From NCBI GenBank assembly GCA_021800795.1, contig JAJYYO010000007.1, positions 1 through 64,000 of the forward strand: a DNA stretch of 64,000 bases, read 5' to 3'. The translations under genes and the position numbers were made by a program. This document shows, in pieces, positions 54,490-60,015 of this stretch. The notes beneath the pieces are model-generated. The model searched no databases. It was not told where the DNA came from and worked only from the letters and a program-made list of their open reading frames with translations. The stretch is from Pseudomonadota bacterium. GTDB lineage: Bacteria > Pseudomonadota > Gammaproteobacteria > Burkholderiales > Gallionellaceae. Numbering within the stretch: the first letter of the stretch is position 1; each line of letters begins with the position of its first letter.

Positions 54490-54594
54490 TTTTATTCCTC
54501 AAGTTTTGATATGTATCGGTTTTTAATTTTTGGCCCGTGATTCTACCGCTTTTCTGTCTTGTTTTGCGTACCTGTTTACTCAGCCAGCCATCAT

Positions 54595-54761
54595 TTAACG
54601 TGAAACTCGCTTAGCGACGAGCCGTACCCCTCGCCCTCCGGGAGAGGGGGAACGGGGGTGAGGGAACGATCATGGCAGATTTGCGAGTTATTGCCCATAT
54701 GGGCAATATCCCTGCGAGAATCTTTTGCATTATCAGGGGTGGCTTTCTTGCCATGATCGTT
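54595..54761 (-). repeat. Dispersed structured element A, copy 5 (long form, minus strand)
   Basis: AACGATCATGGCA (54665-54677) and TGCCATGATCGTT (54749-54761) pair perfectly; copies 2 and 4 have GGGC/GCCC where this has GATC/GATC, so both arms changed together. The inner palindrome ATTGCCCATATGGGCAAT (54690-54707) corresponds to the wobble-paired version in copy 4. The CCCTC/GAGGG hairpin and TTTCACGTTAA end follow on the minus strand. Confidence 0.9.
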
Positions 54762-54921
54762 AGTCAGCGAAATGAACAGAGCTGGCAGCTTTTAACTCCG
54801 CCGTCTCTGACTTTTGTGTCGTAGAAAGCTCCCTGCCCTTTATTTAGTTAAGGATATGAATAGTGCAGGCAGCTTTTAACTCCATCTTCTTTAATTTTTG
54901 TGTCGTAGAAAATTGCCAGCA
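54759..54921 (-). repeat. Two degenerate 82-bp copies of the cbbO 3' end
   Basis: Downstream of the cbbO stop, two further units at 82-base spacing still encode KLPALFISLT (54840-54878 and 54759-54792 on the minus strand). They differ from the gene at mostly third positions (for example TTG/CTG, CCA/CCT, GCT/GCA, CTG/CTA, TTT/TTC, TCG/TCC). The spacers share TTCTACGACACAAAA and GGAGTTAAA. Element A begins at the last copy. Confidence 0.82.
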
Positions 54922-57363
54922 TCATTTAGTTAACGATATAAACAGAGCTGGCAATTTTTCCGGGAGCTGCGCCACCTTGTCGATGATGGTGTACTGCTTG
55001 CCGAAAATATCCTTCACGTAGTCGTCTGCCTTGGGATCAAGGTTGATGCAGTAGGCATAAATACCCTGGGTATCCAGCTCCTTGACCGCCTGCCTGGCAT
55101 CTTCGATCAGGATGCGTCCGTCCTTGCTGTCAATATCCGCAGGTTCGCCATCGGTCAGAATCAGCATCAGCTTCTTGTCGGCCTGCTGTTTGTCCAGATA
55201 ATGCGCGGCATGTCGCATCGCCGCCCCCATACGCGTGGAATAACTGGCTTCCATGGCGGCCAGGCGGCCCTTCACTTCATCGTCCCATTTTTCGCTGTAT
55301 CCCTTGATATGCATATAACGCACATCGTGGCGTGTATTGGAATGAAAGCCCGCGATTGCGAACGGATCGCCCAGTTGCTGCACCGCCCAAGCAAGCAAGG
55401 ATACCGCTTCCTGACTGAGTTCCAGTATGGTCTGCTCGCTGCCCGCCGCTTTTTCGTTGAGCGACTCGGACAAATCCAGCAGCACCATCACGGCGATGCT
55501 GCGCCCGTCATTGCGGTGGCTCATGTTGATGCGCGGGTCGGGTGCCGAACCGCCCTTGTAGTCGATCAAGGAACGCAGCGCCACATCCAGATCCAGCTCG
55601 CTGCCCTCTTCCTGATAACGTATGCGCACTTTATCCTGGGGTTTCAACAGGTCGAGCAGCTTCTTCAGGCGCTTGGCGAGCGCCGCATGCTTGGCGAGCA
55701 GCCTGTCGATGTCCGCGGCATTGCCGCTCGGATGCAGGCCTTCATAGACACTGACCCAGTCAGGCCGGTAACTTTGGCTGTTGTAATCCCATTCGTGATA
55801 ATGACGCGGCGGCAAGCCCCTGATTTCCTCATCGGCAGCCCTTGGTCGATGCTCTTCGAACGCCTCTTCATCGTCGCTCTGTTCATAGAATTTCCACAGA
55901 TGGCGGTTATCGTCGCGATAATCGATCTCGGTATCCTTGAAGTGTGTCCTGGCCAGCTGATCGCTCTGTACGCGCGTCTTCGCCACAAAGGAAATCGCCA
56001 GCTCAGCCATCTGCTGAGTGCCTGCATTGCCCTGCTGCATCAACTCGTGAAAGCGCCGTGTAAATTCCACGATATGCTCGTTCTTGTACGGATGATGCGG
56101 ATCGAGCAGGGCGCGCGACAGCATGGCCAAACGATGGCGCACACCGGACTCCTTCTCAGGGTCACAGGCATTTTCCTCAGGCACCGGGTGCAGCCCCGTG
56201 AATATCCTGCGCAATCCCGGATATTCCTGCATCGCCAGATACTCCACACGGCTGTCTTCAAGAAATTCCACCGCCATGCGCTGGAACGGGCTGAAGTTGT
56301 CGGCAAAAATGGGCGTGCTCCAGCGCCGGTGAGCTACGATATGCGCCAGCACCGCGCGATACCGGTCTATACCCGCAACTCGCTGCGGCTCGTCTCCCTC
56401 ACTTGCAGTGCGCGTTCCGGCTGGCAGGCCGGAACCGCTCGACGGGCGCAGAGCATACTCTGCGAATTCCCCGTTTCGCCCCCCAGCCCCTCTGATGGAA
56501 CTACTAGCCATTCGACTAGGCTGCGATACCACCGCAGCCAAGTCGCTGGTTATCCCGGAAGGCGAGGGGACAACAAAATCGCTGTAGACATCCGGCACAC
56601 GTATGCCCAGCTTGTCATAGTACGGAACCGGCTTGCGCAGCTCGTCATACAGGGTCGAATAGGGAATCAGCTGCTCATCAATCTGCCACAGGCCGCGCAA
56701 ATACATGTCGAGCTTACGTTCATTGTCCATCAGCAGCGTGCCATGCCGCTCGCGCTGCAGCACCGCACGAGAGTCAGCCGATTGCAGACTGAAATAATCG
56801 ATCTGCCGTTCCGGATGATCGCTGTAGAAGCGCGCCCCGTAATCCACCCATTTCTTCAGGCCTGCCAGCGACAACTGCCCCAGCAGCACATTGATCTGCT
56901 TGAACAAAACGGGCAAAGCGGGACTTGCGAATGTCTGATGTATGCCGTGTATCGAGCCTGTTGTGCTTTCCATGAAATCTAACACCAGCGTCAGGTATTC
57001 CTGCATCTGCGGCTTGGTGGGCAATCGGCGGGCAACGCTGGGCAATGACTGCAAGAACGGCACAATCGCCTTGCCGTTTGGCGACTTGTACAGCCTGCGT
57101 ATGCATTCCGCGATGGCGGGCAACGCATCTTCACCCAGAATTTTGGCGACGCGTGGCCATTCCTCAAGAAAAATCAGGATAGGCTCCGCACCTCGCCCCA
57201 TTTTGCCCAGGAAGCTTGCGTATTCAAGGTAAGCGGCAATGCCTTCGTTTGAAAGAATTGTTAACGCCTCACGCATGCAATCCGGAAACACCTCCGCCAC
57301 ACGCGGAAAACCGCAGGCCAGTTGTTCCCAATAGACTTGCAGATCCTCAGGTATGGTTTTCAT
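54922..57363 (-). CDS. cbbO: RuBisCO activation protein CbbO (VWA domain)
   Basis: This 813-residue protein has a helical N-terminal region and a C-terminal von Willebrand A domain with the metal site VLLDLSESLNEKA and later ILTDGEPADID. CbbO is the adaptor that binds RuBisCO and works with the AAA+ protein CbbQ to remove inhibitory sugar phosphates. Residues ~259-329 are encoded by an in-frame composite of repeat elements and are low-complexity (Ser/Gly/Ala-rich); flanking sequence (IRVPDVYSDF and AGIDRYRAVLAHIVAHRRWS) is family-like. The frame is intact throughout. Confidence 0.93.
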   Translation of the reverse strand: MKTIPEDLQVYWEQLACGFPRVAEVFPDCMREALTILSNEGIAAYLEYASFLGKMGRGAEPILIFLEEWPRVAKILGEDALPAIAECIRRLYKSPNGKAIVPFLQSLPSVARRLPTKPQMQEYLTLVLDFMESTTGSIHGIHQTFASPALPVLFKQINVLLGQLSLAGLKKWVDYGARFYSDHPERQIDYFSLQSADSRAVLQRERHGTLLMDNERKLDMYLRGLWQIDEQLIPYSTLYDELRKPVPYYDKLGIRVPDVYSDFVVPSPSGITSDLAAVVSQPSRMASSSIRGAGGRNGEFAEYALRPSSGSGLPAGTRTASEGDEPQRVAGIDRYRAVLAHIVAHRRWSTPIFADNFSPFQRMAVEFLEDSRVEYLAMQEYPGLRRIFTGLHPVPEENACDPEKESGVRHRLAMLSRALLDPHHPYKNEHIVEFTRRFHELMQQGNAGTQQMAELAISFVAKTRVQSDQLARTHFKDTEIDYRDDNRHLWKFYEQSDDEEAFEEHRPRAADEEIRGLPPRHYHEWDYNSQSYRPDWVSVYEGLHPSGNAADIDRLLAKHAALAKRLKKLLDLLKPQDKVRIRYQEEGSELDLDVALRSLIDYKGGSAPDPRINMSHRNDGRSIAVMVLLDLSESLNEKAAGSEQTILELSQEAVSLLAWAVQQLGDPFAIAGFHSNTRHDVRYMHIKGYSEKWDDEVKGRLAAMEASYSTRMGAAMRHAAHYLDKQQADKKLMLILTDGEPADIDSKDGRILIEDARQAVKELDTQGIYAYCINLDPKADDYVKDIFGKQYTIIDKVAQLPEKLPALFISLTK
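56375..56585. repeat. Element A copy 6 with nested element B, in frame inside cbbO
   Basis: On the plus strand, a TCTCCCTCAC tract, hairpins GTTCCGGC/GCCGGAAC and CGCAGAG/CTCTGCG, then CGTTTCGCCCCCCAGCCCCT lead into element B (56492-56553). B is followed by CCCGGAAGGCGAGGGGACAA, the expected continuation of A. B has CGACT/AGTCG and GGCTGCG/CGCAGCC pairs. The whole composite keeps the cbbO frame open. Confidence 0.8.
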
Positions 57364-57384: not shown

Positions 57385-57440
57385 CGTCATTCCCGCCTGC
57401 CTGCGGCAGGCAGGGCAGACAGGCAAAAGCGGGAATCCAG
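57385..57440. repeat. Palindrome C with CTGCCTGC insert between cbbO and cbbQ
   Basis: CGTCATTCCCGC and GCGGGAATCCAG form the outer arms, interrupted by CTGCCTGCGGCAGGCAG, a hexamer palindrome also inserted in element A copy 4 and in repeat G copy 2. It lies in the 110-base gap of the cbbQO operon. Confidence 0.7.
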
Positions 57441-57473: not shown

Positions 57474-58277
57474 TCAGGCAAACACCGCATCGATCGCATG
57501 ATCCAGCGTATTGCGTATGTCCGCATCGTCGGTGATCGGACGCACCAGCGCCATACGACAGGCGTCCTTCGCATCGACCCCGCCCCTGATCAGCGTGGCG
57601 GCATACACCAGCAAACGCGTCGAGATGCCTTCGTCCAGACCATGTCCTTTCAGATTACGCGCCGCAATGCCGATTTTCACCAGCCTGGCGCACAGCTCCG
57701 CATCCATGCCGGTTTCCTTAGCCAGAATTTCAGTTTCGAGTTTGGCTGTCGGATAGTCGAAGTCGAAAGCCGTGAAACGCTGCTTGGTGGACTGTTTCAG
57801 GTCCTTGAGCAGGCTCTGATAGCCCGGGTTATAGGAAATCACCAGTTGAAAATCCGGGTGTGCTGACAATAACTCGCCTTTCTTATCCAGCGGCAAGGTG
57901 CGTCTGTGATCGGTCAGCGGATGGATCACCACCGTGGTGTCCTGACGCGCTTCGACGATTTCGTCCAGATAACAGATCGCGCCGATACGCGCAGCGGTGG
58001 TCAGCGGACCATCCAGCCAGCGCGTGCCATTGGCATCGAGCAGATAACGCCCGACCAGATCGCTGGCCGTCATATCCTCGTTACAGGCCACGGTGATCAG
58101 CGGCTTGTTCAGCTTCCACGCCATATATTCGACGAAACGCGACTTTCCGCAGCCGGTCGGCCCTTTCACCATCACCGGCAGACGCGCAGCATAAGCGGCT
58201 TCGTACAAGGCGACCTCTTTGCCCTGCGCCTGATAGAACGGCTCCTGATGAACCTTGTATTGATCTATATTGCTCAT
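57474..58277 (-). CDS. cbbQ: RuBisCO activation AAA+ ATPase CbbQ
   Basis: This 267-residue MoxR-type AAA+ protein has Walker A VKGPTGCGKSRFVE, Walker B AICYLDEIVEA and sensor residues in LVISYNPGYQ. CbbQ hexamers with CbbO reactivate RuBisCO. It lies downstream of cbbM after a terminator and upstream of cbbO, the standard form II arrangement. Confidence 0.97.
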   Translation of the reverse strand: MSNIDQYKVHQEPFYQAQGKEVALYEAAYAARLPVMVKGPTGCGKSRFVEYMAWKLNKPLITVACNEDMTASDLVGRYLLDANGTRWLDGPLTTAARIGAICYLDEIVEARQDTTVVIHPLTDHRRTLPLDKKGELLSAHPDFQLVISYNPGYQSLLKDLKQSTKQRFTAFDFDYPTAKLETEILAKETGMDAELCARLVKIGIAARNLKGHGLDEGISTRLLVYAATLIRGGVDAKDACRMALVRPITDDADIRNTLDHAIDAVFA

Positions 58278-58403: not shown

Positions 58404-59783
58404 TTACTTGTGTACGCCCAGCTTTTCGCGCCAGCCTGGGAATATCTTGTCTGCATCGCCCGGGAAGGATTCGAATGCACGTGCGAACTCTTTGTGTTCC
58501 TTCGCAAATTCGATCGGATCCGCACCGGCTTTCCAGCACTCATAAGACTGACGCAGGGAAATCGCGCCCGCAGCCGGTGAATCGATATGGCCGTAAGAAC
58601 CGCCGCCGGACGTGTTGATCACGTTGCCGTGGCCCAGGTTCTCAAAGAAGCCTGGCAGACGCAGTGCATTCATACCGCCTGAGATAATAGGCGTAGTCGG
58701 CTTCATGCCGTGCCATTCCTGGTGGTAGTAAGGACCATCCGCAGAATCACGCTCGATCATGTACGCGATATTGCGGTCATCCCTGCCGCCTTCCATCTTG
58801 CCGTAGCCCATGGTACCCACGTGGATACCGGATGCACCTTGCAGACGGGACATCTTAGCCAATACAAACGCGGTATAGCCGCGTACTGCCGATGGCGATG
58901 TGATCGCACCGTGTCCTGCACGATGGTAGTGCAGGTATTGTTGCGGGTACTGACGACGTGCAGTCGTGATCATGCCCGGACCGCCGACATAGCCGTCAAC
59001 CAGGAAAGCAACCTTGTTGGCATCCGGTCCGAAAGTTTCCAGCGCGAAATCAGCACGAGCCAACATTTCGTAGTGATCGTCAGCGGTGATGTTCATGGAG
59101 AACAACTTCGCCTGACCGGTTTCATCCATGGCGCGCTTCATTGAATCATAAACCAGTGGCAATACTTTCTTTAAAGGGCAGAAGGTCTGGTTGCCTTGTG
59201 GCTCATCGTTCTTGATGAAATCGCCGCCCAGCCAGAACTGGTAAGCAGCGCGGGCAAACGGCTCCGGACGCAGGCCCAGCTTGGGCTTGATGATAGTGCC
59301 GGAGATGTAACCGCCGTTGACGCGTGGACGACCCAGGATGTCCCACATGTCGGTGATGTCCTTTGCCGGACCATCGAACAGACGCAACATAGACCAAGGC
59401 ACGTAGAAATCCTGCATCTGCAATTGTTTAACATCGCCCATACCCTGGTTGTTACCGACCACCAGCGTCAGGAAGGAAACGATCATCGCGCGACCGTCGG
59501 TCACGTTGCGATCAAACAACTCGTTCGGGTAGGCTACCTTCATGATGCCTTTGGCTTCGTCGATGAAGTACACCAGCGCGTCCACGCCTTTGGTGAAATC
59601 GTCGGTGGTGGATACTTCAACGTTGGTACCGGTGGAAGATTCTGCTGCAACGTGCGCCGCCACTTCCAGGTAACCGTAACCGGTGGCCGGCTGCATGTGG
59701 TAGGCGACCAGAATGTGCTTGTCACCCTTGATCAGATCCTCTTCTTTCAATGAAAGATCTGCATAACGATTTGATTGGTCCAT
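58404..59783 (-). CDS. cbbM: RuBisCO form II large subunit
   Basis: This 459-residue subunit has the form II active site: Lys166 in TIIKPKLG, the carbamylated Lys191 with Asp193 and Glu194 in [10 protein letters not shown], and the conserved HYHRAGHG and GGGSYGH phosphate-binding segments. It carboxylates ribulose-1,5-bisphosphate. Form II enzymes suit high CO2 and low O2. The ATG at 59783 follows AGGAGA; codons upstream come from repeat DNA. No small subunit is present, as expected. Confidence 0.98.
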
Positions 59784-59824
59784 AACCTGGCTCTCCTGAG
59801 TATTAACGATATATTCTTTAACGG

Positions 59825-60015
59825 AAATTGATAGTGTCCGCTTCCCTGATGAAACAACTAGCCACTCCACTAAGCAACCCAAAAACGGTTGCCAAGTGGC
59901 TGGTTATCACCCAAACCCTCTGGTGAAACAATTAGCCATTCCACTAAGCCAGCAAGCTGGCAAGTGGCTGGTTATCCCGGGGGGAGAGGAAACAAACGTC
60001 TCGCTACGCGAGTTC
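59825..60015 (+). repeat. Element A copy 7 with two nested copies of element B, in the cbbM leader
   Basis: The tract GTGTCCGCTTCCCT is broken by one B copy (59847-59906), resumes as ACCCAAACCCTCT, is broken by a second B copy (59920-59975), then resumes as CCCGGGGGGAGAGG and ends CTCGCTACGCGAG. B copies pair through CCACT/AGTGG with inner stems GCAACC/GGTTGC and GCCAGC/GCTGGC. Together they make most of the DNA between cbbM and cbbR. Confidence 0.85.

Follow-up and report, generated by a model that had tools for sequence, protein, structure and literature searches.

How has the gene for a RuBisCO-activase subunit come to carry a cluster of palindromic repeats in its coding region, and what has become of the protein that it encodes? 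This question is raised by positions 56375-56585 of the window, which is the whole 64,000-nucleotide stretch of DNA analyzed here, from a bacterium akin to iron-oxidising Gallionella. The host gene, cbbO (54922-57363, minus strand), encodes 813 amino acids and is supported as a VWA-domain RuBisCO-activase subunit by its open frame, a match to the VWA domain, and alignment. Its name was assigned in an earlier, sequence-only reading of this DNA, and we take it to be correct given its agreement with the neighboring genes. Specifically, cbbO adjoins the gene for its AAA+ partner, cbbQ (57474-58277, minus strand, CbbQ_C domain), and the RuBisCO large-subunit gene (58404-59882, minus strand, a listed open frame). 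Downstream of cbbO, its 3′ end is repeated directly in two decayed copies (54760-54836 and 54844-54920), which are 78% alike and both terminate like LPALFISLTK. By eye, a separate palindromic stretch (GCCTGCCTGCGGCAGGCAGG...) is also present between cbbO and cbbQ (57385-57440).

The sequence-only reading had proposed that about 70 residues of CbbO, near 259-329, are encoded by repeats without loss of the reading frame. The frame does run without a break across 56375-56585, and the extra residues were found to occupy codons 263-328 (56380-56577, minus strand), which places this 66-residue insert within four residues of the proposed position. Across 61 genomes searched, the majority of close CbbO homologs match as two pieces, the first ending at residues 262-269 and the second starting at residues 306-329. 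The usual loop reads DVYDD-AHGV-AGIDRYR, whereas here DVYSD is followed by 66 other residues and then by VAGIDRYR, with the junction peptide VPDVYSDFVVPSPSGITSDLAAVVSQPSR. Our alignment comprises 110 homologous loci, one of which (L021) is the window's own copy, leaving 109 others. The loop is short in 85 of these (an aligned segment of 33-34 amino acids versus 96 here), measures 35-40 amino acids in 10, and reaches at least 44 amino acids in 14. Ten of the 109 rows are exact doubles of another row once the insert columns are removed, as two overlapping collections were used, and a few loci are fragments. Thus, most homologs have a gap precisely where the insert lies.

The proposal would have been contradicted by homologs that lack the repeat and yet carry the same residues, or by evidence that CbbO is decaying. 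Neither was encountered, as loci without the repeat do not carry the insert residues, and the VWA domain remains recognizable. Moreover, the flanks of the insert (745 codons) differ from those of seven other loci, two of which encode the same protein, by dN values of only 0.10-0.14, compared with dS values of 1.3-1.7 for six of the seven and saturation for the remaining one. To judge from these substitutions, the flanking protein looks to be under constraint, although most of this divergence may be older than the insertion. Because the genome also encodes at least two distant VWA-domain homologs of CbbO (35-38% identity), functional redundancy cannot be excluded.

It could be argued that the extra residues represent ordinary growth of a CbbO linker, and that their likeness to repeats is due to chance. 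Some relatives (L055, L069, and L128) do have short extensions without hairpins, and both the 10 loci with segments of 35-40 amino acids and the lack of a significant hairpin in several of the 14 longer loops are compatible with this explanation. However, the insert DNA is a dispersed repeat. When used as a query, it gives 43 matches within this genome, counting the insert; these fall at 40 places, and the weakest match has an E value of 6.5e-4. Furthermore, peptides encoded by the most commonly shared part of these matches, a hairpin element that we call B, recur in the HsdM, PolA, and MutS proteins, and the hairpin exhibits the covariation described below. We therefore regard linker growth as extremely improbable. 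Rather, we have high confidence that a composite of dispersed palindromic elements entered a permissive CbbO loop and was kept in frame as a disordered linker of 66 residues.

The composite had been described in the sequence-only reading as an element A, an element B, and two extra palindromes, and these parts were located as described. It consists of an outer repeat, P, the 60-nt hairpin element B nested within it, and two further palindromes. An outer P-like part, TCGTCTCCCTCACTTGCAGT (56390-56409, no strand assigned), is common to loci L007, L020, and L136, which also weakly resemble the preceding positions 56378-56389. The first palindrome, GTTCCGGC..GCCGGAAC (56414-56435, no strand assigned), appears at these three loci as GTTTCAGC..CTGAAAC, with paired changes. 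The second, CGCAGAGCATACTCTGCG (56447-56464, no strand assigned), has one pair altered on both sides at the same loci (GCGGAG..CTCCGC). Next are the 5′ half of the P core, CCCCAGCCCCTCT (56481-56493, plus strand), which extends to a T^C junction, then B itself (56494-56553, plus strand, GATGG...GGTTAT), whose covarying hairpin stem lies antisense to cbbO, and finally the 3′ half of the P core, CCCGGAAGGCGAGGGGACAACAAAATCGCT (56554-56583, plus strand), whose far end merges into native cbbO codons. Sequence resembling P flanks the composite on both sides, albeit weakly on the left. L007, L020, and L136 each contain the outer part, the two palindromes, and B together, and the copies at L020 and L136 include an additional B-like stretch. 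The three copies are very alike, and each set of paired palindrome changes may represent a single event.

The component parts are also predicted to fold well. When folded as DNA, B gives a z-score of -5.0, as low as none of 200 shuffles; the two-palindrome stretch gives -3.0 (1 of 200), and the entire 211 nt folded as RNA gives -2.9 (2 of 200). A default repeat scan restricted to the 400 bases at 56300-56700 returned nothing, since the other copies are outside this interval and its palindromes are either short or imperfect. No Rfam family matched any of five loci at the gathering score. Two sub-threshold matches to microRNA families, located away from B, were taken as chance.

B resides at the T^C junction inside P, and copies of P without B exist. 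B, with the pattern GATGRAAC..CTAGCCATTCGACTA-stem-AAGTCGCTGGTTAT, is also found in other settings, such as within a different palindrome at L131, and from its distribution it looks like an element in its own right. When a P copy was used as the query, at least 40 matches including itself were obtained in the genome (the best 40 of 134 candidates scored), and the closest among the matches listed is 98% identical. Of the 38 own-genome copies of B measured, 36 have a length of 60 or 54 nt. Among 30 copies from eight other genomes, 10 are 59 nt long, which is not a multiple of three, and a strict multiple-of-three rule for B was rejected on these grounds.

The hairpin structure of B is maintained by paired changes. 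Among 17 gap-free copies, 94.1% of stem cells are paired, compared with 86.5% (sd 0.8) for shuffled controls. Changes on both sides affect 7 of 16 pairs (shuffled mean 2.8; 1 of 500 as high) and 17 cells (3.4 shuffled; 0 of 500 as high), and sliding the partners reduces pairing to 8-43%. The outer arms are nearly invariant, and the inner stem is variable yet complementary. This covariation does not distinguish between selection and repair of the palindrome by template switching.

To look for additional insertions within genes, we inspected 70 loci of the genome, 40 with B and 30 with P. P or B is present in frame in 13 genes, as supported by Pfam or by homologs. These genes encode CbbO, HsdM, an HsdR-like helicase, a MacB/FtsX permease, AcrB, MutS (within domain III), a family 5 solute-binding protein, a KDO transferase, PolA (between the exonuclease domains), Gmd, CobD, a ZIP transporter, and MutM. 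The permease (L011) was counted on the strength of an FtsX match, as MacB_PCD in the same protein fell just under the cut-off. CobD (L006) is also included, with the place of its second Pfam stretch not shown, and L135 is outside the set of Pfam-tested loci. Five further in-frame cases are likely, namely L003, L005, L145, L180, and L183. These are not counted as firm since the element lies between two ABC halves that could be two genes (L003), occupies a C-terminal tail (L005), accompanies a weak domain match (L145), or precedes the start of the domain match (L180 and L183). L142 and L150, in which the element is upstream of the domain, were likewise set aside.

All in-gene copies found maintain the frame and lack stop codons, with the caveat that open frames were sought first. 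Three of the six frames of B are in use as coding frames. We rejected the notion that B is unusually open by coding design, as 2.6 of its six frames are open in copies outside genes versus 2.8 in copies inside genes. When 60 nt of flank are added on each side, the values are 1.9 for in-gene copies and 0.9 for the rest. For these openness and length counts, the in-gene set of 13 was drawn from B loci alone, with L003 and L005 among them. Where same-strand coding flanks have no common frame, all nine loci tested lie between two distinct genes according to domain matches, with examples at ccmH/ccmI, motA/motB, glyQ/glyS, and two His_biosynth genes. No gene split by P or B was found, but most other copies had no homology check, so any deficit of split genes is unmeasured. 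At 52 of the 70 loci, at least one flank was not called coding by a codon model, and only some of these loci were checked by homology.

These in-frame copies bear on whether the element might instead be removed or skipped at the level of the RNA or the ribosome, yielding proteins without the insert. The strong hairpins might be suited to such a process, and PolA and MutS are among the hosts in which an extra loop might be unwelcome. Yet a stop-free frame would not be needed if the element were skipped, and in-gene copies retain one, subject to the caveat above. Likewise, the five loci compared with Rfam gave no match at the gathering score. Skipping is therefore very unlikely in our estimation, and translation of the insert remains the inference that we favor, albeit in the absence of protein-level evidence.

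The elements are widespread in the genus, an observation that goes beyond the sequence-only reading, as do the repeated use of the CbbO loop and the nesting of B within P. Exact matches to B occur in 35 of 41 genomes of the genus, including this one (a reversed control pattern gave none). At the level of the order, 9 of 300 genomes have one, and five of these belong to the genus (the present genome and four more). These counts depend on the strictness of the pattern, and a stricter or looser pattern would give others. Two contigs from a viral collection also contain an exact match (L240:415-458 and L241:5607-5656). In eight other genomes, we looked at 30 loci with B. At six of them the element again lies in frame, in proteins whose Pfam domains correspond to RsmB/F, GlnE, a hybrid histidine kinase, an AMP-binding protein, MoeA, and PolA.

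MutS and PolA provide parallels to CbbO. Residues 331-364 of MutS are absent from 21 of the 38 genus genomes that have a MutS match, with 15 nt or fewer present where 102 nt stand here. Among 11 homologs examined, the MutS linker carries other peptides in eight (one B-like) and none in three. The PolA linker is long and differs in all 11 homologs examined, with B-like peptides in three. Within the genus, the linkers of both proteins (L187-L194 and L199-L209) contain many different in-frame peptides that look repeat-like, such as LPSPASGRG.GGEG.

Copies of P are near-identical in places and can mislead short-read assembly, which raises the concern that the insert is an assembly chimera formed at repeats. 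However, both flanks belong to one gene in each of the 13 counted cases, and comparable inserts occupy the corresponding linkers of CbbO, MutS, and PolA in relatives. We give next to no credence to this explanation.

The loop of CbbO has been occupied repeatedly. Inserts from three of the 14 loci with long loops were tested (L022, L034, and L036), and all three are other dispersed palindromes, with 67, 15, and 46 matches in their own genomes, respectively. Both strands contributed to these counts and a single palindrome may be hit twice, which makes the places fewer than the matches. These inserts differ from one another and fold with z-scores of -6.4, -7.4, and -3.7 relative to shuffles. The inserts of L043, L051, L054, L059, L060, and L063 have no significant hairpin (z above -2). 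Nine loci that failed the pattern used in the fold test were left out and are covered by the alignment alone. A palindrome present in the loops of L034 and L037 bears the sequence GTAG, which we take to be a tag of the REP type and which is named in the title of PMC3733652.

A CbbO tree provides additional perspective on this recurrence. It includes 98 proteins, was built by a quick method with the insert columns removed, and has weak support for 28 of 95 inner branches. Every long loop was labeled as an insert, including those without a demonstrated hairpin. On this tree, the presence or absence of a long loop requires at least eight gains or losses, and loop type requires at least 11 changes. 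The window's CbbO shares a supported clade of 10 with nine rows that lack its insert, and the closely placed L022, L034, and L036 bear three different elements. Two gammaproteobacterial CbbO loci (L059:3796-3864 and L060:2193-2273) have an insert tail, RLPAGEI(V/L)(I/V)SG, like that of L022-L025. These sharers and those of the Gallionella group are far apart on the tree, and transfer or convergence remains unresolved.

In an AlphaFold model of CbbO, residues 231-327 have pLDDT values below 50 and lie between helices at 196-226 and 331-348. The insert is modeled as disordered, with block pLDDT values of 25-39. However, the pTM of the model is only 0.37, and its quality is also poor over native residues 231-262. 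Solved structures match only the C-terminal part of CbbO (NorD, 9qhd and 9qh6), and therefore the loop cannot be placed on one. The simplest reading is that the insert is a tolerated, translated, and presumably disordered linker, where translation is inferred.

Perhaps the insert is instead a selected functional part, serving either as a regulatory hairpin in the cbb mRNA or as a useful CbbO linker. Further copies of the elements flank the cbb cluster, with a P copy lacking B beyond the 3′ end of cbbO (54594-54676, minus strand) and a pair of adjacent B copies that overlap the listed start of the RuBisCO frame, at its upstream end (59846-59976, plus strand). The repeated filling of the CbbO loop could also be viewed in this light. 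In contrast, 85 of the 109 loci manage without an insert, the other hosts are functionally unrelated, and the loop is predicted to be disordered. A selected function is thus unlikely, and we infer tolerance rather than benefit.

Our favored series of events is that P, with nested B and the two palindromes, would have entered a loop of CbbO that accepts extra sequence, and that the frame would have been retained such that CbbO is made with a disordered linker of 66 residues. Further genes of this genome have taken up elements of the same families in frame, and in related lineages other palindromic elements have entered the CbbO loop. We further infer that small non-autonomous elements such as these were spread by an enzyme that we did not find, in a search confined to Y1_Tnp. 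Neither B nor P occurs at the loci of the five Y1_Tnp matches in the genome (1.6-3.3 kb each), and a link to RAYT proteins was rejected for this reason. By eye, no target-site duplication was seen at the T^C junction of B and the ends of P look partly inverted; the junctions between P and CbbO are unresolved.

The sequence-only reading drew an analogy to Rickettsia palindromic elements (RPEs), which is borne out for behavior but is not a claim of sequence kinship. Such elements, in the parts of the literature available to us, have been described in Rickettsia, Wolbachia, enterobacteria, Neisseria, and a few others. RPEs are approximately 150 bp in length, and nearly half of the 44 in Rickettsia conorii lie in frame within unrelated genes (PMC10969869). 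A guanylate kinase bearing an RPE is reported to be translated and active, with altered substrate affinity (PMC2229807). Stop-free palindromic inserts are reported in frame in addA, addB, and priA of Wolbachia (PMC4224334), and Delihas describes in-frame gene fusions across several MITE families (PMC2229807 and PMC2759123). As a working type, B and P resemble RPEs and their Wolbachia counterparts (WPEs) in being dispersed, palindromic with a stable hairpin, and stop-free in frame within unrelated conserved genes. On this comparison of behavior alone, without any comparison of sequences, P and B appear to work like these elements. Unlike RPEs, they reside in another bacterial group, include nested hairpin elements, and share one loop with different elements across lineages; WPEs differ in that their host is an endosymbiont. 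The ERIC/RU-1, RU-2, RU-3, and Correia/NEMIS repeats are similarly MITE-like with open frames and are fused in frame in genes, but no TA duplication was seen for the elements here. REPs are also small, imperfect, many-copy palindromes, but in contrast to the REP/RAYT system, neither B nor P lies in the 1.6-3.3 kb at any of the five Y1_Tnp matches. Among the literature matches listed, which largely exclude subscription papers, none describes elements of this type for Gallionella relatives. We file the present case as a known behavior in another lineage, with nested elements and the repeated use of one loop as its new features.

It is tempting to speculate, though only tentatively, that Gallionella-type bacteria keep swapping interchangeable hairpin cassettes at the same loops in core proteins (CbbO, MutS, and PolA), and that these loops would serve as long-lived docking sites that diversify linkers. 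If this is true, elements would land in earlier elements, multiple-of-three lengths would prevail in this genome, and the linkers of housekeeping enzymes would be diversified, possibly with functional effects. Peptides of this kind in database proteins can stem from repeats, which should serve as a warning. Given core-gene inserts in the Gallionella group and many related genomes, gain, loss, replacement, and nesting of the elements can be placed on a tree. CbbO, MutS, and PolA proteins with and without inserts constitute a natural series for testing whether enzymes tolerate or make use of new peptides.
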